Source of the DNA: Daphnia pulex | Lineage: Eukaryota; Arthropoda; Branchiopoda; Diplostraca; Daphniidae | NCBI RefSeq assembly: GCF_021134715.1 | Contig: NC_060021.1 | Span: forward strand, 4,402,001-4,466,000 | Length of the DNA: 64,000 nt | Reading direction: 5' to 3' | In this document: one piece after another, positions 1 to 54,830 of the stretch | Numbering within the stretch: position 1 is the stretch's first letter | Layout: every line of letters begins with the position of its first letter | Translations under genes and position numbers: made by a program | The notes under the pieces: model-generated | What the model was told of the DNA's origin: nothing | Databases searched by the model: none | The model's input: the letters and a program-made list of their open reading frames with translations, nothing else

Positions 1-960
1 TTCGCATCTATTTTTCGTAAAAAAATACGACGATACTATGTACTTTTCACGTCTTTCTTCGATATTGCGATCTTGTATGCTTTGTATGAATTTTAACTGT
101 CTAATAGACGTAATATTTCACATAAACTGAATCTACTTTCCCTGGTTACAAATTACGTCCATTAGATGACCACAGTGAACGATAAATGGACGGACCTAGT
201 TTAGACGTCCATTGGATGCAAATATTCGTCTAGTTTTGTTTAAGTTCATTTTAGTATAACAAATGGACGGCTAATGGAGAAACCCCAAAATTAAAGCTAA
301 AATTTTTCTATAAGTAGATAGAACTCATAAAAAGTAGCCGTAATTCACCATGTGAAAATTAGAAATTTCCATAAATTTATGTTTTAAGCTAAGTAACAAC
401 AACACAGTAAAATTTAAATGTACCAAAATTTTATTTCTATATTTTGTTATATTTCTTATTTAATCCTATTCCTTATTTAACGTGAATTTAATAAGGCGTT
501 AATTTGTGGTATTTGATAATTTGTTAGTTATTAAGTATGGATCATAAAATTATTTATTATTGATGAGTGTGTGGTCAGTGTATAGAGCGATGGATTGCGA
601 TGCGGAAATATCAAGGTGATTCGATACCAAGGAGAGTCAAATCTTTTATATTCGTTGAAAATCTAGCGTACATTTTATGTGTTTCAGACGTCTAAATTAC
701 GTCCAGGATATCCTATATACGTTAAAAATCTACGTAGAAAGATGTGACATTAGGACGGACATTCAACGTAGCATGGATGACCAAAATGTATATCCAATCG
801 TCATATATGGATAGCAGGAATACGTTGTTGAGATACAAGCGTGCTAGCAGGGGGGAATCCGTCATTCCGCCCGAACTAAATTTCCGTGTTAGCTTGTGGG
901 AGACGGATTCTTCACTTGACACGACCCAGGAGAGAATTTAGGAAACGAATTTAATAAAAA
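1..960. other. AT-rich non-coding stretch
   Basis: No supported gene. Short open frames at 722-941 overlap on both strands and resemble nothing I know. A motif of the form acgtcca recurs several times between 110 and 270 and again near 700, on both strands, suggesting a worn repeat with no clear boundaries. Confidence 0.4.
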
Positions 961-990
961 AATTAAAAATAAAAAATATTCTTACCATAT

Positions 991-1424
991 TCAAAGGCTG
1001 TGGCAAACACAGATGCATTTCTTGCACTCACGGTGACACCCACAGGAACATTCGCATTCACACAGATCGCATTTTTTCTTTGGAGTGCCTACAAAAAAAC
1101 GTTAAAACAAATAAAAACACGAAAACTATCTATATTTACAATTCCTTTCAGCATGGTCACTTATGACTCTAAGCAAACTCTTGATCTGATAGGAGTTTGG
1201 GGCTCGGAAGCTTCTTCCGTCTCAGATGTGATGTTTAGTTGAAGTTGAATTTCAATATCAGGGAGGTTTGCTGTGGTTTCATTAGTTTTTTGTTGGATAT
1301 CCACAACTTGTTGAACAGCGTAAAAAAACACCCCCAGATTGATCCTGCCTGATCTTAGACCTCTTTTGTTGCTACGCTTACGAGATACACAAGAAAAATA
1401 TTTTATTAGCCACAAAGTAAGCAA
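991..1424 (-). pseudogene. Cysteine-rich family, copy 1 (dispersed)
   Basis: This is a member of a two-coding-exon family also found at 27.9-30.4 kb. The 3' exon (1088 down to the stop at 991-993) follows an intact tttttttgtag acceptor. It encodes a compact domain of the form KCDxCxCxCxCxCHRxCxxCICxCHS. The 5' exon (about 1400-1161) encodes a basic start (RKRSNKRGLR), then a conserved RINxGVxFxAxQQ segment and an acidic tail. The position equivalent to the donor used by the other copies reads gatcaag rather than gtaagt, and the open frame runs on to a stop at 1161. This copy may therefore be unspliced or use another donor. The function is unknown; the Cys spacing suggests a metallothionein-like or zinc-binding module, which is inference. 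Confidence 0.55.
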
Positions 1425-1589
1425 GTAAGAACAAAGTAGTTATTATTATGTAAAATTTATTCTTTTCTGTGGCACAGAATGCCATGCTTTTCATAAAAGG
1501 TTGATGTCATTCCTTTATGTCCAGGAATATTCTTCATGAACACACTGTGATTACGTGTCTTTGAATATGCGTCCTCAGCGTACTGACAT

Positions 1590-4565
1590 TAATTTATTTG
1601 TAAAAATCAATATTTTCTCATGTAAAAAACAAATTATTCGTAGAAACGGTTCCCAATCGTACTCAAACTCCGAATCCTCAACTTGAGTGGATGGCTCATC
1701 TGAAAACCAGACTGAATTCTCTTCGAACATTTCTGGAGCACTATCCAGTTCTTCAATTATCTCTTCCACAGGGACTTAAATGGATGTGATCTTGTCCGAG
1801 AATGTAATGTCCATGAAATCGAAGGACGATAGAGCAAGTTTTCTGATCCATGTTTGACTTAAAGACATGTCCCATCCATCGATGGTTTTTTCATTCCTTG
1901 TCGATTTCAACACTGATTTGATTAGCTTAGGGTCTGCAGACTTGTTGATGACCTTAGCAGAGAAAATTGTTTCAGGATTATTTATCCTGGAGGTGGATCT
2001 AAGCTGGATAAATACTAATTCATGTCATTGATGGTTGCAGTATAACTAAAGATTTTCATCCTTGCATCAGGCATGTTCTGCCAGTGATAGGTAGAGACTA
2101 GATTGATAGAAACACCATTGTAGTTGAATCTGATGTCTTTAGACTCCATGATGTCGAAAAGTTCATCTGATTCTTGATTCAAGTAAAGCGGACATCCGAG
2201 GATAGACAAAGCTGACATCAAGATGAGGGTACTCGCACGTAAAATAAAAAATTTTGGTTTTTACCTAGCCTAGAGTAATTTTTCACGATGGTCATTTTTT
2301 CGAGAGGTTTTTTACCTCGAAAAAATTTATTTCGCGAGATATTTAAGTAAAAAGTTGTATTAGGCTCCTCCTTTCCAAATTTGGCTGTTCAGCCATCTTT
2401 GGTGGGAGGAGCCTAATTAAGGCCCCAAACAATGCAGACGAACAGCTGTTGAGTAAGTTTTAGCTGTTACTTTAATAATCGATCGATTATTAAAGTAACA
2501 AGTAGTAAGTAAGTTTTAGCTGTTATTTTAATAATCGATCGATAGAATATCGATCAACATCTCGATCGATTATTAAAGTAACAGCTAAAACTGACTCAAC
2601 AGCTGTTCGTCTGCATTGTTTGTGGCCTTAATTAGGCTCCTCCCACCAAAAATGGCTGATCAGCTAAATTTGGTAAGGATTAGCGTAATACAACTTTGCA
2701 CTTAAATATCTCGCGAAATAAATTTTTTCGAGGTAACAAACCTCTCGAAAAAATAACCATCGTGAAAAATTACTCTAGGCAAGGTAAAAACAAAAAATGT
2801 TTATTTTACGTGCGTGTGCCCTATTTAAATGGATCTGGAATTCAAACAAGTTCAACTTACCAACATCAAGCAAAAACGCAGAGGCAATAAACAACGGAAT
2901 CGACGTGTCCGTCGTAAAAATCAGAAAGCAAAAAGGTAAAAAACAAAATTTAAAGTTTGATCCCTCTCGAGTAATAAAAAAATAGGCTTAACATGTACCA
3001 AATACCGCAACAATTTCGATTAACACTCCTTCTGTCTCAAAGACAAGACAATAAATTTTTAAGGTATAACCCTTTATCAACGTGAGTCAAAAAAAGTTTT
3101 TAACTTCTAGACGCCACGTAAACAAGGGTTAAGAGGGGATTCCCTATAGGGCTTTGTCCCGACAGGCAATCTTGGTCACTCCAGAAACTTGACTGTGCCA
3201 TGACATGTTTTGAAGCAATGTACACTGAAGTAGCAACTACCCTTGAGATGCAAACTCTACCACTCAATAACGCAGTGACACTAGACGAGTGTAGCTTTTT
3301 TTAAGTTCAATAAGACCTCATTGGAGTTCAGTGATGGCCTGTATAGAAGAACAGGATTGGCATATCTATTTACTGCCTCCAATCAACAGGGAGCCTCATA
3401 TTCTTCACTAGTTTGGTGTGTTTCTTGTGATCACCCCAAAGTTATGACCCTGGTGTAAATGAAGGATCCTCCAATGGTGATATCAATTGTTAATTGCCTC
3501 TCACCTTCCTTCTTATAGTGTCAGGAATCCTGTTTATCAACACTTTATACGTTCTCCCCAGGTCGGTGGTGGTGACAGCTTTCCAGAGATTGTATTTGAA
3601 TCTAATTAGGCCACAAAGAATGGAAAATATATGAGAAAAATGCCATTTCTTGGGTCTCCTAATAGTGTCAATTCATCTTCACAGAGCTTTGTTTAAGAAT
3701 GGAGAGACGGAAGACCCCAGAAGATTATAGTGAAGCAAGGCCTTGCCTATTTGACGGTGAACAGTTAAACTGAAGCTTCTCCCATTAAAGAGGACTGTAG
3801 TTAGGTTAGACGCCATTTCCTCTTGCCTGGAGGACAGTGATTCTGGTTCTCTTAATAGCTTGGTAGTGGTTATCCATCTAAAAAGTGGTTTGATGCAGTT
3901 GTTGTGAAAAGTGAATTCAGAACTGAACTCAGACACTAGTAGAGTTAGAGATGTGACCTTCACTGAGTCATAAATCCGCACTATTTCAGGGAAGAGACTG
4001 CCAAATTTGTAACAAACTGCAAGCATTACGTTGAATTTATTCAGATGCTGAGAGTTGTCTGCAAAAAAGCTGGTCAGGATCTCTGAGTCATATGAAGAGA
4101 CGGCGACATCCACTAACACTGGTACCTCTTTAATTTCCCCTGATGGAAGTATTTTATGGGTTCTTCTACCAATCTTTAGGCTTATGAAATTTCTCATAGA
4201 AATTCATCACAGTGCAATGCAGTAGGCTAGACATATAATGTAGGATCCCTTGCATCATTCCTGTCCCAACTGTGATGTTATTGATCTATGGCCATTCAAC
4301 CAGCTGTCTCCAGCATCTCCCAAGCCTTATTCATGAAGTCACTGGATGTGCACAGATAAGAGTTATTGACGACAATTTCCATCAAGTTTGGGTCATTCAC
4401 TATCAGTTTCTTTGTGAACATTGAAATTCCCCTTATGATTATTGGGTGCATGTAGGCAGGAGTGAACTCAATGAGGACAAGAGCAAATTTAGTAGTGTAA
4501 TTGCCCTGGTTCCATTGTTGTGCATCTGCATATTTTGCAGCCTTGACAACTTGCTCTTGAAAGAG
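1590..4565 (-). pseudogene. Endogenous bunyavirus-like L polymerase remnant
   Basis: This is a non-functional fossil of a negative-strand RNA virus polymerase, read right to left. Conserved blocks appear in the family's order. Motif A lies near 4512-4529 (the D-A-x-x-W pattern followed by QGNYTTKF). Motif B is at 4214-4261 (GMMQGILHYMSSLLH). Motif C is at 4081-4098, where the expected SDD reads SYD. Motif E is at 3901-3930 (EFSSEF), followed by an RQEEM segment near 3820. Further viral-looking open segments occur at about 3490-3610, 3110-3300, 2015-2221 and 1640-2000. The blocks fall in different frames and contain stops, so there are several frameshifts. A foldback element at 2227-2821 interrupts the sequence. 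The motif set matches the L protein of phenuivirus-type bunyaviruses (established family knowledge); the exact genus is not determinable here. Sequence upstream of motif A is absent, replaced by BEL/Pao sequence on the same strand. Confidence 0.85.
2227..2821. repeat. 595-bp foldback element inside the viral fossil
   Basis: The two ends are inverted copies of each other over roughly 200 bp: left from 2227 (gggtactcgcacgtaaaata), right ending at 2821 (reverse complement gggcacacgcacgtaaaata). Both arms contain ctagagtaatttttcacg and then the same ttttttcgagagg and gaggagcctaattaaggcc blocks. The centre (2470-2590) holds smaller palindromes built on aataatcgatcgattatt. No coding capacity and no convincing target duplication were found. 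It is a non-autonomous foldback/MITE-type element that inserted after the viral sequence was already in the genome. Confidence 0.85.
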
Positions 4566-7243
4566 TTTATTTCCTTCTTGTCATGTCGATTATTTTTTAC
4601 TAAATCCGGAGCATCCAGTAGGAAAGCCGGCCTAGTAAAGAATCGGTGGCTTGTATTTAACTCCGCTGCTGACACTTCTCTGCTGACGTCGTTTTCCGGG
4701 TTTTGCAACGTTGGAACGTAGAGCCAATGGGTAGAGTGAAAGGTGTCCAAAATATCACTAACTCTGGACAGCTCTTGGAGTTTAATCATGAAAGATTCGT
4801 GGTGGAGTCAGTGAAAAGCACGACTCAAAGAATTTTAAAGCACAGCTCTTTGATGATGGTCGTTGCCATCCTGACGGACATCAGGCATCCATACAGCTCC
4901 AAACACGGCATAGAAACATATTTAACTGGTGCCACCTTTGTTTTGGTCATAACGAGTAACACATTTATCGGTCGGTCCAGCCGCTCAAACCGAAGATAAC
5001 CGACGGCCCCAAAGGCTTTTTTCAGAGGCGTTCTAAAAAATCATCAGATCCACGGCTTCTTCATGGTACTGCGTCCAGCAATAGCAACGTGGAATGCTGA
5101 GGTTGTTGACGGCCATTAAGGATCCGGCACAATCTTGCCACTCCTCGGTCAGCTCAGGTCAAAGTCAACATCTACAGCTGCAACCGGCTGGCCAGGTAGC
5201 GACAACAGGACGGTCCGGCCGAACGGAGCCCCACTGGCCCAACTCAAATCCGCCTTCTTCTTCGTCTTAGTGTTTCGGCACCTGCGGTTGCTTCACTGTC
5301 TGTTGTTGTCACTGGTTCTGAAAGATGTGACCCAATTGTCAACGTAAAACTGGTGTTCCACTTCGACCACAAACTGGGCATCATCGGTGTCGGCATCTTC
5401 AGACAATCGGCGCAAAACGTGCCCACAGATGGCGGGTGAACAAACGGATCCGAATATGTAGTTCTTCATGCGGTAGACATCCTGTTCCAGTTGACCTTTG
5501 GGCGCATACAAGAATAGATAAACAAAGGAATCTTCTTCACGCATACGCATCTGGTGAATCTTATTTATGTCGCCACACAGAGCAATGGGAAACTCACGCA
5601 GCCAAAGTAGCACGCCAACCAAGTAGCGTGCGGCACTTCTCCCTTTAGCAGCTCCATTCAGCAAAATGCCGTTAAATCTAGTTGCTGCTGAAAATTATCC
5701 GGAAGGTTGACGTTGTCCTTTTCCCATGAAACGCAACCTCGTAGTGCTGTTGGTCACTCAAGAAACCCGTCGTCTCCTCTAGGATACGACGGGATCGCAA
5801 AATCTCCTTTCCAACTGACGGTTTGGCTTCGGAGTAGGCGCCAGAGGGTTCTTGGCACAGAAACTGGTCGAAGATTTCGGCTAACACGAAGATAATATTG
5901 ACGTGGTGTAGCACCTCAGGCCCGTTTCTATTTTCATGGCCGGACCGACATCTCTTTGGATGGCCCAACCAAATGCCGTAAGGATGGCCTTCGGAGTATT
6001 CTGCAAAAGCGGTACCTTTCGATATTTGAACGCATCGGTATGGTCCATTCCAATCGACAACTTAACCTCCGCCACGCCGACGCACCAAAGCGTAACTTCC
6101 GCCAAGTGAGGCCACTTTCCCACAACATTTTCATGGGATACGGGTCTCTTGCTCAAACTGAAAAGTGGGACAGTATACGCGTCAAAAATTTCAAACTCGC
6201 TGAGGCCGTCAACGGATTAAAAACGAAAGAAATTGCCAGGACTAAATTTCAACCATCTTCGGCCCGTCTAAACCAAGGAACTGCCGGACTTCATCACACA
6301 ATAACGATATTTCGCAGGCACGATCCAACGGGGCAAATGTTTCATATACTTTTCCGCTATGAGCACGGATTACCACCGGCACGATATGCAGAAACGTTTT
6401 ATTTTGTCTTTGCGGGGTGATATGCATTCATGTGAAGGGTGGTTTTGATGATTTGGACCATTTTAGTTCCTTCTTGTCTTTGTCGGGACCGCTCTTCTTC
6501 GCCCTCAGAGGTAAGATGTAAGACTTGTAAGATGGTTGTTTCCTGCTCGAGAGCAATACTCGGTCATTTGTGTCTGACTAATCGTCGAGATCAGCTAGAT
6601 CTGGGAGTTGATCTGTGATGAGGTAGTTGCATTCTGCCAAACGGTTTCGGAGTGCGTGCGGCAGTTTGTTGACTACATGCGCCAGGACGTCGTGACTCTG
6701 CAATTTGACACCGCAAACCCAAAGCGGAGCGTTGCAACACAGGAACGTAGAGCCGCTGAAAACTTCTGCAACGCTTTGAAATCTCTTTTTTGGAACGGTA
6801 TCAAATCCTAAAGCGCTCTAGCTGCTACAAGGCGTGTCAATGACACGGGGTTTTCCGAATTTTCTCTGGATATCTTTCAGGCAGCTCTCATACAGCCTTG
6901 GGCGCCACAAACACTCGCCCAGCTGCATCTGAAAATCCGTAGACAGGCATCTATGTAGGAACGCCTGTCTCTCCCAGTCATCCTGGCAGCAACCATCGAC
7001 TTGTGCCACAAACGTCTAGATAAATATCGGCCATTTTAGGAGAATTTTGTTGAATTTTGTTAGCTCGATCTTCAGCAGCTGTGATTTTGACCTAAAACTC
7101 GGGATGGCCGTATTTCCATGTCTTTCGATGTTAAAAATCCATCCGTCTAGGCTATTTAAGTTGTTACTCGATCCTACACCACCTCTTGCTTTTCCGCTCG
7201 GTTGAGGCGCTGGCCCGCCAACTCCGCCTAAGTGAGAATCCAC

Positions 7244-7400
7244 ATACAGTACCCACCACAGGTATTGGATCACTCCGGTCCAAAAAAGCGTTTTAACCCG
7301 TGCGAGATAGGCCTAACGGTGTCTCGCGTGAGATTTTTTAAAAAATACTTAGATTGGTCGTACGAGGTTTATTTTTTTTTGCATAAAGATAAAGAAATAT
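7244..7400 (+). repeat. Dispersed repeat, partner of 63842-64000
   Basis: It begins tacagtacccaccacaggta and continues through a conserved core (gcgagataggcc, then acggtgtctcgc) to a kataaagataaagaa-like end. The same order of blocks appears at 63842-64000. The TACAGTAC start resembles the TA-flanked ends of Tc1/mariner-type elements. It lies inside the BEL gag region, so it is a nested insertion. Confidence 0.6.
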
Positions 7401-7470
7401 TCTTCATCTTTCTGATTTTTAATTAAAAAAAAGTGTTGAGGTTCTGTATTTAAATTAACCGTTCATAAAT

Positions 7471-7621
7471 ATTGGATCACCCTAAAAATATGCCGCATGG
7501 CCTGTCCCTACCCGCGGCATGGCCTTAGGGTATGGCGGGGACGAATCCTTTGTCTACCATATCCTAAGGCTATGCCGCGGGTAGGGACAGGCCATGCGGC
7601 ATATTTTTAGGGTGATCCAAT
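7471..7621. repeat. Near-perfect 151-bp palindrome
   Basis: Arms 7471-7529 and 7563-7621 are reverse complements over 59 bp with one mismatch; pairing resumes for about 6 bp more inside, leaving a loop of about 21 bases. The ends read attggatcaccctaaaaata and its complement. The arms are GC-rich (ccgcggcatgg), unlike the AT-rich surroundings. There is no coding potential. Near-identical arms suggest a recent insertion or hairpin-templated repair. Confidence 0.9.
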
Positions 7622-8639
7622 GAATCGGATTTAAACTGTGCGGTCGGCCATGAAGTGGCGCACTTTAAAACGTATTTGCCGTTACTTATGACGTCAGTGG
7701 CTGTGAACTGTTAGCTGCAAGCAACAAGGTTACCGGATATCTCCAACCGGTTGAATAACTTTAGCTTGGGACGGACGGAAATGCGCTGGAATTTTTCTCA
7801 GACGTGATTGCCGTTGACACATACGACTGAGGCGGAGGTGGCACTTTAGCGCTAGAGACGCTTTTCGAGATGAAGGCAGGAGCGGTAACTTGCTGTTGCT
7901 GCTGTGAAGATTCAAATCCTGCTTGTGCCGCCGCTGAATGAGGTGCTGCATTGTTTACATTCAAACTGGCGTCTAAACTACTTCTGGTGGCCTTCGAGCT
8001 TAAAATCCCAGAACGCACCGGCCCGTTGGATGATTCCGCTCTACCGGGTGTAAGGTTCGTTATAAAATCTTCAAAACCTGCCCACGGACCTTTTCCCGAA
8101 GCGGGTCTGGCGTCCACTTACGGCTGCCTAGGAAAAACTGCCTAGGAAAAACTGTCGAGTCGTAAACGCTGGAGTGGCAATTTGTGCAGCAGAAAATACA
8201 GCCGATTCCACGGGTGTTATTGATATTGTACTTCGCCTATCTCCATCCAACTTCTGTACAAGAATCTGGCTTCCTAGCTGATGACCTTCGAGTTCGTTCA
8301 TTAACCGAAGCTGGACGCGTTCCGCCTCAACCTTTAACTCTTCTTTCAGCTTTTTTTCGTTTAAGCGCCTGATTCTTTCCTCTTCGATTTCTCTCAACCG
8401 CACTTCTTCCTAGGGCTGCTTCATCCACAAACCGGAGCTCTGTCTCAGCCACTTTCCGCACCTTCTAATGAATTTTACTTTCCACCGACCGTTTGGAACT
8501 TCTTGAACCCGACTTGCTTGGCTTGGCCACGAGCATCTTGCGATGAAAATCGTTGTCGAATTCTTCTTTCGTCGCACACGCTGCCAGAACTTCATTGTGA
8601 CACAGCTCAACGTTCTCAAACTCTCACACAAAAGAAGAT

Positions 8640-10830
8640 AAGTAATCCCGCTCCTCAGCCTAAAACTCCTCTCCTGGACTAAGCCTTGTCTGTTCCTTTC
8701 TGTCGAACGAGCTTCCTTTTCTCCACACTCTTAGACACCGCGAATGTCGGCTGCTCAGGTTCCGACCCACTAAGAGTTTATTCTTCAATGCTTAGAAGCT
8801 GAGTGGCATCCATGTTGTCGGGGGTGGCCGTGATGCCCTTTACCGTTGGGACGCTGAAAAAAAATGCAGGCCAGAAGACTTGATACGTCTTGATGCGAAT
8901 TGAACGGGTTTTTAATTTGAAGCTGAGAGAGTCATAAGACACACAAGATAACAGGAATGCAACGAGTTAATAAATGCAGACGTAGCGATGTTAACGGCTT
9001 TCTTGGTCTTGATAAACGGGCGCCTCCGACGAATCCGGAGTGGTAGCGCTCTCTGTGGCTAAAAACTTAACCACTCTCTTCACTTGGCGGGGCAGAACAG
9101 AAGCGTCCCTTAAGAACACGAAAGGCTGATTTAAGGACCGAGGAGAAAAGAAAATCACTTGTCGGGAGTTGACGATGGGCTGGTTGCAACTGGCTGCACT
9201 GGTAAGCAGATACTGAGCTGAGTGCAATCTGTAATCGGGTCGGAGAGGGAAGACATCACCAGCACTAAAAGAGGGGAAAACAGGGACTAAGGAGGCAAGA
9301 GCCTCTTTTTTGGGCACATCCAGATAGTGCCAGAAGTGGGATCATCACACACGTAATCATATTACTTTTTCGACAAGCAAAAATATGTTTGTTTTTTGCT
9401 CACAAGGTACGATAAACGAAGAGTACAATGGAGTAAGCCATATTTGTATTGGGCATAGTCAGTAAAAGAGTAGGGATAAAGTACCGTGACAAACGGTGAA
9501 TTGCAACAAAAAATAATGGTTAATAACGCGGTCGGGAGCTAAAGTACCAGCGGCCAGTATTGGCGTCGATGGGCGGCGTCGTCGTTGCGTTGGTTGTTGT
9601 CGCGTTCACGGAGATGAGTGATGATGTTGTTGTGGTAGTCAGGGTGAGCGTCTAGTCATTACAACTTGTCGTATAGCTGAGTCTAAATCAACAGAAAGTG
9701 TAGACACTTTTACAACTTTATGACACAAATTTTGCCATTTTCTTTATTATTGCAATGAAACAAACAAACGGGACTAGTTGGCTGGTGAAAATTGCAAATG
9801 AAACATTCGGGGATACCTTTTCATCGTAACCATCAATTTCCAAAAGGAAATGTGATCGCAAAACCTAATGGCCATTAATGAATGAGACCTTGGTATTTAT
9901 CCCACCCAGGTGTAAATTTTCCATTGATAAATGAATGGGTCAAGGATGGGAATTCAGAGCTATACTATGCCAATTGCTACAGTTGCAATTTAAGATTGAC
10001 GAGAGGGCGGTTAAACAAACCAAACAAAATCAGAGTTTTGTACTGGGGTTACCTAAACTGCAGCCTGAGATACAGCAGGTTTACAAATATTCTGCTGCTG
10101 CATACCAAAATATCAGAAAGCCTTAAATGTCTTAAAATATAAATATAAAAGCCTTAAAACTGATCCAGTCCGGGTGAGAGTTAAGGGACACAATCTGGAG
10201 GCACTTTTTTGGGCGGGATGACAAAACAACCTTCCTCATTCAATCACAACAAGTTACTCAACAATGCAGTTCACCATCGTCACCTTGTCAAACCAAATAT
10301 GTCTCGTATGCTGCAGTGAAATTACAAAGCTCGATACGCCTAGTCGCTGATGACGAATCAGCTCGCCATGGCGAGAAATTCTCGATTCAACCAAAAACTC
10401 TCGAGAAGAGCTCAAATTTATGGCTCTGTCTCGAGTCGACTACCTGTGACCTGCCAAGGAATACAAACTTTCTCTTCCACCACTTTTCTTTTCTTCCACT
10501 TAAGTGAGTAACACAGGAAATAACTTATGGAGTTCTAAACTAAAATATTTAAATATTCTAATAAATATTCTCATTTTAAATATATTAAAATATTCCAAAT
10601 AAAAATTTATAATAAATGGAAACTTTTGAACCCCTTCCTTTGGCTCGTGCAAATGGTCTTCAGAACACGCGAGAAACGCGAGTAGCACGCAACACTATTT
10701 CCGGTTATATTTTTATTCAATTAAACCTTTCACATCCCTTGATGGAAGTGTCACATCCGATTGTGTAGGGTACAATTTTATTTTATTCTTAGAAATAGTT
10801 TTAATGTGTAATATGTGAAATTTTATTAGT
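8640..10830. other. Unassigned region next to the BEL remnant
   Basis: The BEL 5' LTR and leader would be expected here, to the right of gag, but no LTR ends can be fixed because the partner LTR is gone. A 108-codon open frame on the minus strand (9317-8991) has no recognisable domain. A second open frame (9935-10126, plus) is Lys/Gln-rich and also unrecognised. Confidence 0.35.
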
Positions 10831-10836
10831 TAAAAA

Positions 10837-11139
10837 ATGGTTATTCCCGACGTTGAGCTTAACCCTGCAATGACCGTTGTTGGCGATTCTTACCACGCGA
10901 GAAAAATTCGATCTTTCCTGGCCTACTGGCCTTTAATTTCCCGTTTTATTGACGAATGCAACTTAAATAGAGAAATTCAACGATCTTTAAAGACTATTTA
11001 TCCCACGTTGCGTACTGGAGTTGAATACCGCATTAATAATGAGGTCTCAAAGAATTTCATCTACTTTACAATTTGTTTTTTAATGACCAGGAGCTCAATA
11101 ACTTACCTTACCTTAATTAGTTACCATTTACCTACCTAA
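10837..11139 (+). CDS. Unrecognised 100-codon open frame
   Basis: It opens with MVIPDVELNPAMTVVGDSYH and has a fairly even amino-acid composition for the first 70 codons, then becomes hydrophobic (a possible read into intron; a ggtctcaaag at 11041 is not a convincing donor). No motif links it to a known family. It could be a fragment of a gene or of a transposon protein, or chance. Confidence 0.2.
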   Translation: MVIPDVELNPAMTVVGDSYHARKIRSFLAYWPLISRFIDECNLNREIQRSLKTIYPTLRTGVEYRINNEVSKNFIYFTICFLMTRSSITYLTLISYHLPT

Positions 11140-12235
11140 TTAGGAAACACCATTGCCTGTTCCTGGATGGGGTCGGAAATAATTTGAAGCAATTTTGGAT
11201 ATGATGCCCATATGACCAAGGGTGAGGGCAAGAAGACAACGATTCAAAGAAAGACAAGTAAAGCAAAAAGACTACATAACAATCTCCGAAGACACTTGAG
11301 AAGACAGAAAAAGAAGGGAAATCCCCACCTCGTTGCTTGCAGTTAAAGATTCAAACCCTTTATATTCTTATTTATATTCTAATTTCTATCTATCTAATTC
11401 CCTTTCTAACTATGCAAATCTAAACTGGATAATATCTAGATAATATACTATCTAGATAATATACACGATCGACGAATGCAGGGCTGCCCAGGCCATCTCC
11501 GATGACGATGGGAGGAATGTAGAAGAAACCAGATTTCGAGGATTCTGTGTATCCTTCCATGAGCCCCCATCCAAAACAGCCTCATAATACAGAGCCTGTT
11601 CCACAAAATATACAAGTTTGCCTCCGGAAAAACCATTCCCTAATATAGTACCGGCTTGGAGTATAGGATGAACTACATTGTCACTCATTAGCCCTGGTTC
11701 TTGATTCTGGAAATTAGTTAAAGTTAACTTTTAAAGTAATAAATAATTATTGGAAATTATCTTCACGGGAAATGCCCATCGTTGGGCCTGGATAGGGAGG
11801 GCTGCTTATTAATGGCAATATGAGAGGAGATCGATCGCAAACGAGAGCTGGTCATCCGAGGAGAGTCCCGTGGTAGCCCGGTGTCCCAAGATAGAGTGAA
11901 TAGACGGCAACGACTTCGTCTTCAGCGAAAATTGTGGCAAGTCAGACTTGGGAAGGGGGAGGGGGTGGTAAGGGACAGAGGGGTATGATATTTGGTTAAA
12001 TCTATCAGATATGACACATTCACGGAATTAAAAGAGAACCTCTCAAGATGACGGTGCTATCTGGAATGAAAAATTCCTGGTTTGCCTTTGGTGGCCCTTT
12101 ACCAGAAATATACACGCATCACTAAACACAAACAATCAAAGCACACATATCAGAGTTGTCACATCGTATTTCCTAGACATTTCAATGATAATCCTTGTCA
12201 AATTAGCTTTAAAACGCGTGTTTCATAGCTCTCCA
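11140..12235. other. No gene seen
   Basis: Nothing recognisable. A short direct repeat of atctagataatatac occurs at 11430-11465. Overlapping minus-strand open frames at 11448-11688 show no family features. Confidence 0.4.
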
Positions 12236-25327: not shown

Positions 25328-25898
25328 TTCACTACCTTTGTTTTTACACATCACTGTTAGTGTAGTATTTTGTTGTGTGAGCTTTGTGTATAACCACAAC
25401 ACCTTAGGAGTAGTAATAGTCAGGATGATCCCCGCTTTTTTTCTGGTGAATCTTCGAAAGGCGAAACGAGATTTGGTTGAGCCCAAAATCCGTAAAGGTT
25501 CTTCCAGTTCAACGAGAGAGCGTCATCTGTCTTCCACGCCCCTGGCTGGGGAAACGGAAGCAAAATCTTCCAAGGATCTTCCAGCGCAACGAGGGAGCGT
25601 CATCTGTCTTCCACGCTTCTTGCTGGGAAAAGCGACTGACAAAAACTGGCAAATGAGGGTTCATGGCACTCGCGAAGAGGTCTACTTCCATTCTCCAGAT
25701 CAAGTGAAAGGACTGATGTCTCTGCTCACACCATTACGCAATTTGTAGGGCAATTGACCATAGGTTACTTGACTTGCAGCCATATAATTTATAGCTGACG
25801 GTGGAGGTATGATCCAACTTTAACTCTACGGAAGCATTCTGGTAAGCATTCTGCTAAAAACTCTAGGAATTGTGAGTTCTGCTCTTTCGTATTTTCAC
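25328..25898. repeat. 571-bp duplicated segment, copy A
   Basis: Identical to 34072-34642 except for five substitutions, with no indels. It contains a DIRS-like RNase H fragment (minus, about 25748-25430) and the last about 36 codons plus 3' flank of the SIAH-like gene. An internal tandem duplication of about 53 bp (starts 25501 and 25578) is present in both copies. This copy is the likely source, because the SIAH-like frame continues across its right edge. Confidence 0.9.
25430..25748 (-). mobile_element. DIRS-like retroelement RNase H fragment
   Basis: The minus strand reads WRMEVDLFASAMNPHLPVFV, then AWKTDDAPSLRW. The pattern E-x-DLFAS-x-x-N-x-x-LP-x-x-VS, followed by a DA-x-SL-x-W box, is characteristic of the RNase H region of DIRS-type retrotransposons. 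The second box is duplicated and out of frame because of the internal tandem repeat. No tyrosine recombinase was found. Confidence 0.5.
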
Positions 25899-26269: not shown

Positions 26270-27900
26270 TACAACGTGGCATATCATCACTGGTGTGGTT
26301 AAAATTAAAGCTCGCGAAATTGTCCTCTTCAACATGCAAGGAAGATGTTGGATGTTGATAATACAACGTGACTATAGAACGTCAATTACCCACGTTGGGG
26401 TGCAATTAATTTAGGAAAACTTTCACAATATAAGATTTTTTGATTTAGCTACTGTACAAACCTTGACGAGAATTCAAAAAAAGTTTTCTTGTACCAAAAT
26501 GGGAAAATGCCAAAGTATTCTCTGATTTCCTTAAAAATCGCTCATCAAGTAAATTATCGCTCTTAAGCTCTGGGATTTGTTGTGCGACTGTGTCCTTATG
26601 TTATAAAGGTGGAAATTGATGTATTCGAAGGACTGGCAGATGGTAACTTACTAAGTTTGATATCTCTTGAAAATCTCTTTACTGTTATTATTAGTCCCTA
26701 CTAACACAGTAGGGGAGAACGGGGTCATCATGGACATGGGTCATATTGGAAAAGTGCCATAAATGCTTCAGTTTATTGGGTAAAAATTATATTTTTAAAT
26801 TTTTATACGGATTTCTTTGTATTACACCACAGAATATATTTTTATTAAGATATCACTATTATTTTTTATGTAATCGCAAAATAAAAATAATCGACACATT
26901 TCATGTAATTTTCTTTTTCATTACGACTTTTAAAAAATAACTTAAAAACATTAAATATTATTGTAATAATTACTAACATCATTAGAGTATTCATTCCTTT
27001 AATGTTTCCCGTAAAAAAATATTTTAATGTCAATTACATTAAAAGATATAAACAAAATCAGAGATAAGGAGATGGGCCACTCTGTGTAAAGTCCAGCAGT
27101 CGACATCTTTGCCCCCTCCCCCTCCTTTGACGACGAATTCGACTTCACTGCTCCTTTTGGTGAGCTCCGGAAGCTTTGCCTTACTTGGCGGTAGGGGTGG
27201 TCCTGAAGGGGTAGAACTACTGGGAAATGCTTCCGGAGCTCGCCGAAAGGAGCAGCGCAGTCGAATTCCTTATGGAGTTTCGCCGGTGTGATTAGGACTA
27301 TTAGTTTTATGTTCTCATTTCAATCGTCCTCAGTTTCTATTCATAATTCGATAACTAAATTCCTTAGTTATCAGGTAATCTTTTAAGTTTTATTTCCCCT
27401 CGATGGTCATTGTAGTTTTTTTATTATTTTTTTTTGTAAACGTCCTACGTCCCTACCGTGTTTTTAAAAAAATATCGCCATTTCCTGCCCCAAGGGAAGA
27501 ATGGAAAGAAGAGACGAAGGAAGAAACTAAGAGGAGACAAAGGTGTGCGCGTTCTCTTTTCTCGGGGCAAGATATAGTCTTTGAAAACAAAAGGCCTTTT
27601 TAAAAAAAATTATTAAAAAGCCGCCATGCAGAAATGACTACCCAGTTCGTGTCCAATTTTTTCTTCGCTTTAATTGACTTGGCAACTTCGGACCTTAGCC
27701 AAGTCTATCCTATTTTTTTACAAGCTGCGCCCAGCTTGCGTGTATTACTCTTGACCGGTAGGTGTCGTATCCACTCCACCCTCTCTCTGTAGACGAAGAC
27801 CTCACGGCAGTCTAGCGTACGCTTCTCAGGCGCGAGGTTCTCCTCTATGTGTGCAAAGAACGAAGCAAAACAACTGAACGATGAATAGTGAAAAATGAAT
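26270..27900. other. No gene; one inverted repeat
   Basis: AT-rich intergenic sequence. It contains an imperfect inverted repeat, 27135-27174 with 27229-27268 (36 of 40 positions pair, including gcttccggagct and the outer gaattc). Other open frames (26746-26940, 27403-27603) are low-complexity. Confidence 0.45.
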
Positions 27901-34071: not shown

Positions 34072-34642
34072 TTCACTACCTTTGTTTTTACACATCACTG
34101 TTAGTGTAGTATTTTGTTGTGTGAGCTTTGTGTATAACCACAACACCTTAGGAGTAGTAATAGTCAGGATGATCCCCGCTTGTTTTCTGGTGAATCTTCG
34201 AAAGGCGAAACGAGATTTGGTTGAGCCCAAAATCCGTAAAGGTTCTTCCAGTTCAACGAGAGAGCGTCATCTGTCTTCCACGCCCCTGGCTGGGGAAACG
34301 GAAGCAAAATCTTCCAAGGATCTTCCAGCGCAACGAGGGAGCGTCATCTGTCTTCCACGCTTCTTGCTGGGAAAAGCGACTGACAAAAACTGGCAAATGA
34401 GGGTTCATGGCTCTCGCGAAGAGGTCTACTTCCATTCTCCAGATCAAGTGAAAGGACTGATGTCTCTGCTCGCACCATTACGCAACTTGTAGGGCAATTG
34501 ACCATAGGTTACTTGACTTGCAGCCATATAATTTATAGCTGACGGTGGAGGTATGATCCAACTTTAACTCTACGGAAGCATTCTGGTAAGCATTCTGCTA
34601 AAAACTCTAGGAATTATGAGTTCTGCTCTTTCGTATTTTCAC
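34072..34642. repeat. 571-bp duplicated segment, copy B
   Basis: Copy of 25328-25898 with five substitutions. It carries the same DIRS-like fragment and internal tandem duplication, but only the C-terminal tail of the SIAH-like gene, which breaks off at ttttcac/caagcc. The flanks are unrelated to those of copy A and no target duplication is evident. Confidence 0.9.
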
Positions 34643-49819: not shown

Positions 49820-51539
49820 ATGACCTTTTCATTTAATAAAAGTCGTCCACCATATCCTTATTTGTCAGCCGAGATTGAGGGGTAAGTCGAAATGTAAAAA
49901 TGTTAGTTACCAACCAAAAGGACCCATGAAATATGTTTTGTTTTTTTTAGCTCGTTTGCTTACAGGACAGTGAAAGATCGAATGCCAGTTATTCTCACAA
50001 AGGTGATAGACTTTTTATGTCGCAGTAAGAATGAAATTGTGCAAAGTAGTCATTCTGAGGTAAAATTGAAGTTGCTGTCTGATACAAATATTTCTTATTA
50101 TGTTTAATATTGTTCAAATACATTAACGTAAAGCTATCCCCTCTTTACAACTATTGATAGGCTGCAGCATTAGAAGACTTAAAACTGATTATTGGAAAAT
50201 TATCTAAGCTAAGAAGTGAAATGCAAACAAACAAAACACTTAGCAAATTTGAAATAGATTGTCCTCACCTTCAAGATAGTGAAAAATGGAATACAGAATT
50301 GATTGAAACTAAAGACAGTGCTGCACCTTGTTGGTTCAACTCACCTTGGTTGCTTGTGGAGTGTTACATGTACAGAGCTATTTATTATATGTTTAATGAC
50401 AGGTATTTTCAATTACATTTGGATTATTAACACCTGTCAGCAGAAATAATTTTTTCCGGAAATAATCTATCTGTTTCCAGCGTACATTTGAAGGGATTTG
50501 ATCCATTCAGTCACATGAAAGAAGAAGCATTCTTTGTGCAGAAAAACATTATATGCCAGCTTGCTTCCTATACCAATGGATTGTGTCTAAAGTCAAATTA
50601 TAGTTCCTCAGAGTTACATGTTCATTTCATGAAACTTATTGAGGTTAATTATAAATTTTCATAAATGCTTAATTGAAAAGGTTATTAAAGTTTTTCTTCT
50701 TTTAGATTTGTCTATGGGGGAATCGAAATGACCTGTCTCTATCAGCTGGAAATACCAATACTGAAGTCAAATCAAACTCTTTTTTTGATGACATAAAACA
50801 GCTAAACTCACACATCTTAGTTAATAATATTAATGAAGTTTGGCTTCATATGGAACACATTCAGAATAACCCATATGATAATAAAGAACTTAGCATAATT
50901 ATGGACAATTCAGGACTGGAAATGGTTGCTGATCTCTGCCTTGCTGTTTATTGCATATCTCACAAGCTTTTCGACCGGGTTAATTTCTACGTAAAAAAAA
51001 TTCCGTGGTTTGTTTCCGACACAACTTGTAATGATCTTAAATGGGCGCTTCAGTATATGGAAAATGATTGCACTGAATTGCAACATTTTGCCGAGAAATG
51101 CCGCGCTTACCTACACTCAAACCAGTTTCAGGTGCTTGAAGAGAGTTATTTTACATTGCCACTACCATATCATGTACTGCAAGAGGAAGATCCTAAACTT
51201 TACAAAAAACTCTGTCGTAGCCAACTCATTATCTTTAAAGGTGCATTATTGTTCTAAATTGCAAATTGTCCTGGTCGCCTTAAGGTTATTAATTTTATTT
51301 TTACAAAATGTTTAGGTGACCTTAATTACAGAAAACTTGGCGGAGAACTCTGCTGGCCGTCTTCCACCCCATTTAAAACTTTTTTACAAGGATTCAGTCC
51401 AGCGCCTTTGCTTGCGTTACGAACAATTAAAGCAGAAATTATTTGTGATTTACCATCGTCTAAGATAAAAGAATTGGATTTGCTTGACAAAGATTGGATG
51501 ACTAATGGAAATTACGGCTTGATACAATTTGCAAAATAG
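49820..51539 (+). CDS. ARMT1: Damage-control phosphatase / acidic-residue methyltransferase ARMT1
   Basis: A DUF89-family metal-dependent enzyme, reported in human as an acidic-residue (PCNA) carboxyl methyltransferase and, by structure, a sugar-phosphate phosphatase; cytosolic/nuclear. Exons: 49820-49881, 49951-50059, 50161-50402, 50481-50643, 50706-51240, 51316-51539; every junction is GT-AG and in phase, giving 444 residues (human protein about 441). Seen: YPYLSAEIEGSFAYRTVKDR at the N-terminus, PWLLVECYMYRAIYYMF, the metal-site DNSGLE motif (Asp259/Asn260), a second Asp at 297 (FVSDTT), and a GDLNYRKLGG loop spanning the last junction. The start ATG is the first before the conserved N-terminus. 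A poly(A) signal run (aataaataaaataaa) lies at about 51578-51592. Looks intact. Confidence 0.93.
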
Positions 51540-51689
51540 CTTCCGTGTTCTAAAGGAGATAACATTTTACATTAAAAAATAAATAAAATAAATTTGATGT
51601 TATCTTTTCTCTTTTTCTTCAATAAACATGAAGAAATTTACCTGGTTCACACTATAAATCTGGGAACGAATACTATAATATTTTTTAAG

Positions 51690-51778
51690 TTCCACATCTT
51701 ATACGCGTTTTCGTAGTCTTTTATGAACTCACTGAATTAGGCGCTATATAAATTGAAACATAACATAACATAACAATT
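51690..51778 (+). repeat. SINE 3' end
   Basis: ggcgctatataaattgaa followed by a tandem ataac tail, matching the 3' block of the SINE at 43.5 kb. No tRNA head is evident, so it is a 5'-truncated copy between the convergent ARMT1 and ITFG2 genes. Confidence 0.55.
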
Positions 51779-52031
51779 ACCTGTTGGTTGTTTTACAACG
51801 CATGTTTTTTTTTTGGTTTGTTTTTTTATATACATATAAGCGGCAGAGCTAGTATTTCAGTGTACAAAACATGCGATTTAGCAAATCACGCTAAGTAGAT
51901 ATAGTTATGGCACTTGCAACATTCTCAATGAAAATTCTCAAATGAAATCATAAAAAAGCCTTTCAGCCACAAATTTAATTTCCTTCGTAAATTTAATTTA
52001 TTTTATTTTCGGTTAGAGGAATAGAGAATTT

Positions 52032-54199
52032 TTATTTGTAAAGTGTTTTAGCAAATATTTCGCTCAATTTCGAAGGATTCGTAAGATACTTCAACAAGTT
52101 CTCATCTAAATTTTCAGATTTCGTTTTGAGAAGTTCGCTAGAAGTGTGGAGAGTTATTCTTGGAAGAGAGACGTTGTAATACACGTAGATTTTGTTGTGG
52201 AACGTTGCGTAAGCAAAAGCGGGGAGGGAAGACGATTGGGAATTTAAGGAATAATAACCTGCGGTGAAGGCTGAAACGGATTGATCAAATTGGAACCGAA
52301 CAGTTTGCTTCTCTTGGTTTACAATGTATGTTTGTCCATCCTTTATAAAAATTAACAAATCAATCAAATGAGCTTTGATGTAATCAGAAGCTAGAGTAGA
52401 CCACAAAATAATAAGCCATTCATTACCCATGAACAGGCGACCACTTCTTCCCGGCCATCGCCTGTTATGTCTAGTTTCGATAGAGCAAATAACTGATGAT
52501 CAACTTGTAACGACCTAAAAGACGAAATCCGAGGGAAAAAATACCGTTTACAGTACTTGCCTTAAGTTTGGGAACGCACGAGGGCATCACGGGAAAAGAT
52601 ATTTTCCACGCCGTTCCCGAAAAGATGTTTTTGTCGAAAAGCGACCATTGTTTATTTTTTACTAGTTTAACAAGTTAAAAGGCCGCCAATTAAACTTTTT
52701 TGTGATTTCCAAACTTTAAATCGCCCTGAAACCTATCCTTTCCTTGATTGAAACAATGTTTTTAAAAAATTGTGTAACTATAACTAAATCTAATGACTAC
52801 TTGTAAAAAATAAATAAATAAAATATTGGCGCTTTCCGATGAAGACTCAATTTTGATTGGGAACGTAAAGAACTTTACCTTTTTCAAATGGTTCCCTCGC
52901 GCGTTCTCAAACTTTATGTGCCTTATCTAATGTAACATATATAGCGAAAAAGTAAAAAAATTACCACAAAATTTGCTCATCTCGTACCATCATCAAGGTT
53001 CCGTCAAGTGTAGCTAATAAAATTGAAAGTAAACAAAAAACCAACAAACAAGATAATACAAATTGGATCGCCATAAACTCACCAACGGCATACAGGGCTC
53101 CCTTATTTTCATCTTGATGCGATATTCCCTGTGATATGTTCCCTAATATTTCCGTTGATACATTTGGATTGCGCATATGTGAGTATGCAAGTGGATGATA
53201 ATCAATTGACATTTTAGATAATAACTCCCTATAGAAAGAAATCAGTTTTACGTCTTCATGCGCCTTTAATCTATACAATTTACCTTGGTTCTTCTTTTCC
53301 ATGATCTTCACAATTTTCTAAAGGCTTACATTTCAACCGAATAAACGTACCTGTATAAAAATTGTGCATCTCAATGTAAAAACGTATGCGATGGTTGTCG
53401 TGTGAATATATTTTGACAAATACCTCCCGGATGGGCAACTAGAAGTGAAGGGGTGCGGTTGGCCATGTCATTTATACCCACAGTACCAATTTGATTAGCG
53501 AACTCCCATTTGTTGAGACCAACCAGTTTTGTATTAATCCACTGATACGTGCGGACAACTCGGTCCGTCAATCCAATCACAAGTTCAACTGAAATTCAAA
53601 AAAGGTAACACTAATAATAATTATGAATTTCTACAATGTTCTTACTCATTCCGTCTGAATTCACATCATGCAGGAGAAGGACTTTGGTATTAGCCGGAAT
53701 TCGTTGTACGTGAGTCGGTTTCATGGGAAGTTCACCGTCGCTGCACGTATCCGTGAGGAAATCAAAAATGTAACACCAGCCTTCCCCATTAACCACAACC
53801 AAAGAATTTCGACCCTTATTCAATACGTTTATAACGTTATTTTTTTGTAGTTCAATATGCACATGGTTTTCGTTAACTAATTTACCGCATTGAATATATC
53901 ACCAACTCCAATTGCAGTTACCTGAGAAAAAAATTAACAGCGTATGACAGTAAAATATTTTGCTAGTTAAAAAAGTAATAAAGCATTTGAGAAATTTATG
54001 AACTAACCATTCCCAAATCACTAGCTCTTCTCCAACATTTACTAGCGCTGCCTTTGTAAATGTACACATCTCCATTTTCGTTACCCACAACAAGTTCTTC
54101 ACATTTGTCATTATCAACATCACCAAACAAAAATGCATTTTTGAAAACTGATCCAGGGAAATCAAACTCAAGACGTTCCACATAAGACACAGCTCTCAT
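52032..54199 (-). CDS. ITFG2: KICSTOR subunit ITFG2
   Basis: A beta-propeller protein of the KICSTOR complex (with KPTN, SZT2 and KICS2), which tethers GATOR1 to lysosomes and restrains mTORC1 when nutrients are low. Exons, in order: 54199-54008, 53921-53886, 53814-53646, 53588-53424, 53350-53284, 53228-53083, 53013-52965, 52514-52427, 52340-52032. All junctions are in phase: 406 residues against about 447 in human. FG-GAP-like repeats are visible: [36 protein letters not shown], then [36 protein letters not shown] and [10 protein letters not shown]. Most introns are about 50-90 bp; the seventh (52515-52964) is enlarged by a MITE. A possible poly(A) signal (tttatt on plus) is near 52000. The start ATG lies 74 bp past the IMMP2L stop. 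No damage seen. Confidence 0.92.
52549..52930. repeat. Mariner-type MITE in an ITFG2 intron
   Basis: The left end is tacagtacttgccttaagtt plus tgggaacgc; the right end is its imperfect inverse (gcgttctcaaactttatgtg). It is related to the element at 62451-63061. It lies wholly inside ITFG2 intron 7, between splice sites that still fit. Confidence 0.7.
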
Positions 54200-54273
54200 T
54201 GTATTTCAGTTCTAAATGAAACAAGAATTATTTCAATATTTAAACACTTAAATGGGTTACTCTTTTCATAAAT

Positions 54274-54830
54274 CTAAGCATTTAACTCATTATTATGCAA
54301 CATAAGCCTACATGCTCTATTCAATGGCCAAACAATATGAGTAGCTTTAGCAGTTATTAAGCCAAGGGGAATTGGACCAAAAAAATTTGAGTCCATGGAC
54401 TGAGAATGATTTTCTCCTTCAATCCAACAAAAACCTTCAGGAACTTTGACATGTGAATGGGCATGCCCTTTAGTTTCTACAACATCTCCTTCTAAGCCAA
54501 CAACACGTTTGATCAGACATGAATCTGGATTCCTAGGTGAAATCAATGAGACAATATCTCCTCTCTGAATTTGAAAGTCCCTGACAGCCCAACGATTTAG
54601 AAGAACATAATCACATGTTGTACTATCTTTTGGGTTCAGGATCTATTAAAAATACAAGATAGAAACTAGTGCATTAAATCCTTTTTTAAAAATCTTAAAA
54701 TATTGTAAAGAGCTCTCACTGGTTGCATTGAAACGCCGTCGACTTTAGCTATGTAACAGACCGAAGAAAGAAAACTGATTCCTATAGGCACCCCTAACGC
54801 TAAGGAGCGTAACCAGCAGACACTGGCCAT
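54274..54830 (-). CDS. IMMP2L: Mitochondrial inner membrane peptidase subunit 2
   Basis: An S26 signal peptidase of the mitochondrial inner membrane, facing the intermembrane space, which removes sorting signals from proteins such as cytochrome c1. Two exons: 54830-54720 and 54642-54274, with a 77-bp intron, in phase, 159 residues (human about 175). Seen: an N-terminal hydrophobic anchor (LALGVPIGISFLSSVCYIA), the catalytic Ser34 in GVSMQP and the catalytic Lys82 in CLIKRVVGLEGD. A box equivalent to GDN-x-x-x-S-x-DSR-x-FGP is also present (ENHSQSMDSNFFGPIPLGLI). All key residues are present. The same-strand ITFG2 ATG lies 74 bp downstream of the stop, so the two genes are very close, possibly with overlapping transcript ends. 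Confidence 0.93.

Follow-up and report, generated by a model that had tools for sequence, protein, structure and literature searches.

The locus analysed here raises the question of how part of a polymerase gene from an RNA virus came to lie in a chromosome of Daphnia pulex, how much of that gene is present, and what carried it in. We define "the window" as the whole 64,000-nucleotide stretch of DNA that was analysed (C5:4402001-4466000); all positions below are window positions unless another contig or locus is named. The viral locus lies on a contig of 11,977,500 bases, between a remnant of a BEL/Pao retrotransposon and repeats that occur in many copies. We consider it highly probable that the element is a decayed, non-retroviral fossil of a phenuivirus-like L polymerase gene, about 1.4 kb in length. 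Like other non-retroviral endogenous viral elements, it combines homology to an RNA-virus gene, host or transposon sequence in its flanks, and fragmentary decay. The preliminary description, which had been made from the letters alone, proposed that an arthropod chromosome carries an endogenous L polymerase of phenuivirus-like origin in a decayed state, and the homology, the broken frames and the BEL/Pao and repeat flanks all support that identification.

Motifs A, B, C and E of the polymerase, together with the RQEEM block, were found on the minus strand in the order originally reported; frame changes and stops separate them, and motif C has a degenerate form (SYD). The motif names are those of the earlier note and of common usage for such polymerases. 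Motif A (ADAQQWNQ) lies at about 4506-4529 within an open frame at 4299-4580, and motif B at about 4217-4264 within a frame at 4169-4285. Motif E (EFSSEF, about 3913-3930) and the RQEEM block (about 3814-3828) share the frame 3682-4203, in which the latter aligns to L proteins from the Protein Data Bank (PDB). Pieces of the minus strand were searched separately against Pfam, and all three exceeded the Pfam cut-off for Bunya_RdRp (PF04196). The frame at 4299-4580 matched profile positions 414-494 (E 2.1e-7), that at 4169-4285 matched positions 517-549 (E 2.8e-8), and that at 3682-4203 matched positions 553-703 (E 3.1e-19). When minus-strand open frames in 3493-4580 were compared with dinucleotide shuffles, the summed length of the three longest was reached by 1 of 1000 shuffles and the length of the longest by 0 of 1000.

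Comparisons with proteins in the PDB agree with the placement of this gene on the phenuivirus side of the bunyaviruses, since the significant matches were to L proteins only. The 174-residue piece that spans motifs C to E matched six L sequences with expect values from 1.3e-21 to 9.3e-17 (next match, 0.5), and the piece carrying motif A matched the same six with values from 5.3e-13 to 1.1e-8 (next match, 0.59). A profile of six pieces, drawn from the window, three other loci and P0001, a public protein from a separate collection, returned the same six L sequences at 3.2e-31 to 9.9e-31 (next match, 0.37). We take the six PDB sequences to represent two phenuivirus L proteins, those of Rift Valley fever virus and SFTS virus; the PDB also contains other bunyavirus L structures. 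That only six L sequences in the PDB fell below an expect value of 0.3 suggests that the L fragment in the window is nearer to phenuivirus L proteins than to those of other bunyaviruses. Searches of viral contigs for exogenous relatives, with two single pieces as queries, found none.

The L copy in the window is a pseudogene. A manual count across the homologous pieces gave seven frame changes and at least one in-frame stop. The intact catalytic motif C (SDD) is absent, and at about 4087-4095 on the minus strand the copy reads SYD; of the seven other loci that are readable at this position, six have SDD and one has SED. Very probably, no working polymerase is made from this copy. P0001, which is identical to the window at 161 of 172 residues over the motif C-E piece and has SYD as well, reads in a single frame from motif B onward, indicating that less broken copies exist.

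The viral stretch proved shorter than the span of 1590-4565 that had been claimed for it. Alignment at the DNA level to eight other loci, together with the three PF04196 matches and the PDB L proteins, delimits a decayed L gene fragment at about 3181-4598 on the minus strand. At the right end, the alignments stop at 4597 in three loci (L025, L031 and L032) and at 4598 in a fourth (L026), with the remainder ending at 4530, 4529, 4529 and 3936. The left ends behave similarly: L022, L025 and L026 stop at 3181, L032 stops at 3182, and the remaining four loci end at 3297, 3303, 3536 and 4341. Similarity to L persists as short pieces down to about 3172, and the last recognisable of these before the repeats (3172-3300, minus strand) is 67.5% identical over 40 residues to another locus and has a weak match to L in the PDB (E 0.2).

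Repeats occupy the interval from 2226 to 3170. A short dispersed repeat at 3065-3170 is found in at least 12 other places with 91-95% identity, a second dispersed repeat at 2829-3069 in at least two other places with 75-78% identity, and a fold-back (palindromic) repeat at 2226-2825, with arms of 261 nt that are 93% complementary, in many other places. These copy numbers come from a DNA search of the genome in which 40 of 105 candidates were scored. Seven equal-scoring copies of the fold-back element, resembling a repeated block, lie in the 6.978-7.024 Mb interval of C12.

The remainder of the claimed span, 1578-2225 on the minus strand, has no viral match by protein, and a DNA search found other places in the genome only for sequence left of 1541. 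Three long frames in 1578-2260 yielded nothing significant in the PDB (best E 0.11) or Pfam and no protein match in the 12 other loci (best E 0.67). The middle frame (1779-2024) recovered only itself in a protein search of its own genome, and nothing from viral contigs or from 5.8 billion proteins. Frames in 1578-2225 are weakly longer than those in shuffled sequence, the sum being reached by 21 of 1000 shuffles and the longest by 144 of 1000. This stretch could be host sequence or, equally, a region further along L that evolves rapidly. Protein searches of Pfam, the PDB and the other loci thus lend no support to an assignment of the left half of the claimed span (1590-3180) to L.

Fragments of L genes are scattered through the genome. 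A profile search of its 13 contigs (133,188,837 bases) returned 24 Bunya_RdRp matches, which were grouped into 13 places on eight contigs, the place in the window included. Four of these, on C3 at 6.25, 6.32, 6.37 and 6.50 Mb, make up one duplication family with 89-99% DNA identity that extends into the flanks, and a further pair, L022 and L024, shows 83-84% identity along stretches of 1.4 and 0.6 kb. The viral part of the window has no close DNA copy elsewhere in the genome among the 40 of 105 candidates that were scored. When the 174-residue piece was searched against its own genome, it gave 11 further matches in eight other places, with identities of 37-65%. We infer that divergence on this scale is more readily accounted for if related viruses integrated several times than if one insertion multiplied inside the genome.

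Several of these places have peculiarities of their own. The four loci at 6.25-6.50 Mb on C3 (L023, L027, L028 and L029) are copies produced by segmental duplication; an N-terminal fragment of L is present in every one of them, and L027 contains an inserted reverse transcriptase and endonuclease of LINE-like type. L030 is a rearranged copy, in which two L-like fragments less than 3.3 kb apart in all point in opposite directions (2251-2598, minus strand, and 4841-5538, plus strand). A repeat at 27059-27231 of the window is 86% identical to positions 4627-4798 of L025, where it sits at the point at which the viral match is interrupted. A fragment of a phlebovirus-type nucleocapsid gene (Tenui_N, E 3.7e-5) with three stops was found at C10:10991650-10991886. 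The genome gave no match to glycoprotein G2, but the control was silent too, so this result is not evidence of absence.

The surroundings of the locus are those of a host chromosome. Host-type exons at 50706-54642 encode an ARMT1-like phosphatase, an ITFG2-like protein and a signal peptidase of family S26. Elsewhere in the window, two direct copies of 571 bases (25328-25898 and 34072-34642) are 99.1% identical and reflect either a recent duplication or a transposition; both contain an unclassified open frame. An inverted repeat at 7471-7621 has arms of 65 nt that are 97% complementary and spaced 21 nt apart. Among the other contigs, C13 carries a COX1 gene with nine in-frame TGA codons, as in an animal mitochondrion, and a short COX1-like stretch with a stop at C11:6254056-6254226, in a nuclear contig, is possibly a mitochondrial insertion.

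To the right, the viral fragment is joined directly to a retrotransposon. A decayed BEL/Pao element, represented by its internal part only and truncated inside pol, occupies 4604-7207 on the minus strand; it matches Peptidase_A17 (E 3.4e-13) and is colinear with residues 412-1520 of an uninterrupted Pao frame of 2070 residues from C10. The position 7207 is where the match to the Pao sequence of L050 begins. At the other end, the Pao match stops at 4604 with the frame of L047 as query and at 4616 or 4619 with frames from three other loci (L048-L050). With the viral alignments starting at 4597 or 4598, the gap that belongs to neither match is 5 to about 20 bases long. We place the join at 4598-4604 on the minus strand, where the viral fragment and the BEL/Pao pol gene meet in the same sense, in the middle of pol and within the Pao internal region. 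An open frame of the window (4442-4807) spans this point, and so do two proteins from JGI data: P0002 is identical at 115 of 116 residues across the join and P0003 at 106 of 117, with one gap. The join is therefore not an error of this assembly, and it predates the split of these sequences.

What lies beyond the break in the Pao gene was sought on the far side of the viral fragment. Pao residues beyond 1520 had no match in window positions 1-12000 at an expect value of 0.01, and nothing significant to the Pao 3' part was found in 14.6 kb of left flank (4.6 kb and a further 10 kb). A resemblance between the Pao integrase and the first bases of the window (best E 0.098) was not colinear and was taken as chance. 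The closest DNA copies of the Pao part are only 70-71% identical. No long terminal repeat (LTR) or target-site duplication was identified around the chimera, whose nearest Pao relatives are this divergent and whose left end lies under repeats. A scan of the 12 other L loci, with five Pao frames as queries, found Pao sequence within 10 kb (E 1e-6) at one of them, L024, where it lies on the opposite strand about 0.7 kb from the viral part; Pao is thus not a general neighbour of L fossils.

Two accounts of the join fit the data about equally well. On either of them, a piece of L gene about 1.4 kb long, from a phenuivirus-like virus that has not been sampled, was very probably copied to DNA and inserted in the ancestral germ line. 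In the first, the locus is a chimera, shared by several present-day lineages, that formed as a BEL/Pao reverse transcriptase changed template, using both its own RNA and the L RNA of a phenuivirus-like virus. Under such a scheme, the enzyme would have passed between Pao RNA and the plus-sense RNA of the virus, and the resulting chimeric cDNA would then have integrated. The inserted copy has since decayed, with the loss of the first aspartate of motif C and the arrival of repeats at its left end. Template switching is consistent with a join that is direct, in the same sense and inside the Pao gene, and with the absence of the Pao 3' part. The divergence of the nearest Pao copies nonetheless marks the Pao part as old, which leaves room for the join to have arisen in a later rearrangement. 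We put the chance that template switching produced the locus a little short of even.

In the second account, end joining placed viral cDNA within a Pao copy that was already there or next to it, or a later deletion brought the two together; the join is then a scar of repair, with no template switch involved. Both partners are old and decayed and the ends of the LTRs were not found, as end joining would allow, and the published account of crustacean elements in PMC4573495 describes no signature of transposition among them. The shared sense and the absence of the Pao 3' half from the 14.6 kb to the left weigh on the other side, in that an extra deletion is needed, although they are not decisive. 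End joining with a later deletion is accordingly a reading that we hold as tentatively as the template switch, and neither quite reaches an even probability.

The locus could instead have been retained for a function, for instance because it gives rise to antiviral piRNA or encodes a protein fragment under selection. Ballinger et al. 2013 call the Daphnia elements selectively maintained in their title, the same paper is cited for purifying selection in a passage of PMC6166632, and the frame from motif B onward survives in P0001. The window copy, however, is broken, with motif C damaged and repeats in its flank, and retention for function seems to us improbable; a putative role of the locus in small-RNA production is possible. 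An assembly artefact or contaminating virus sequence, in favour of which nothing was found, is exceedingly improbable in view of the broken frames, the repeats on one side and Pao on the other, the 13 places in the assembly, and the recurrence of the join in P0002 and P0003.

Publications of 2013-2015 already describe phlebovirus-like RdRp fossils from D. pulex, so that the element in the window is known as a kind. Metegnier et al. 2015 (PMC4573495) report 22 viral elements in D. pulex, the majority being the phlebovirus-like elements from Ballinger et al. 2013; in the passages concerned, the bunyavirus-like RdRp copies form a lineage that has no close relative among known bunyaviruses, one duplication is recorded, and no signature of transposition- or microhomology-mediated insertion was found. 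Table 5 of Li et al. 2015 (PMC4384744) likewise has an entry for D. pulex as phlebovirus-like RdRp. Retrotransposon reverse transcription is named in a passage of PMC6166632 as the probable source of such elements, and PMC5497376 describes a bunyavirus-like element of Aedes aegypti, AeBunya1, inside a full-length Pao-Bel element, with a discussion of template switching. Searches of open-access literature brought up no paper recognised as describing a Pao-joined viral element of Daphnia, and the BEL/Pao join is probably a new detail of a known kind of element. In a chromosome-scale assembly, the locus confirms that phenuivirus-like viruses entered the germ line of this lineage more than once. 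If the join is the product of a template switch, it supplies a concrete route of entry where the published crustacean survey saw no signature, and the way in which an RNA virus reached the germ line of a crustacean can be read from it; if it is not, the locus simply adds one more decayed copy to a group of elements that the literature has described.

Compared with the L protein of the Phenuiviridae, the window is colinear from motif A through motif E and over the region after them, but the piece is only about 1.4 kb long, its frames are broken and its motif C is damaged, and it cannot be a working L. It shares with the D. pulex phlebovirus-like RdRp elements the gene, the virus side and the host, as well as the occurrence of several divergent, broken copies and at least one duplication family; it differs in its direct join to BEL/Pao, of which the pertinent passages of PMC4573495 and PMC4384744 contain no example. 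AeBunya1, as described in PMC5497376, belongs to another host, and the Pao element in the window differs from its partner in that only a decayed internal portion is left, cut off where the viral sequence begins, yet in both cases viral sequence is physically joined to a Pao element.
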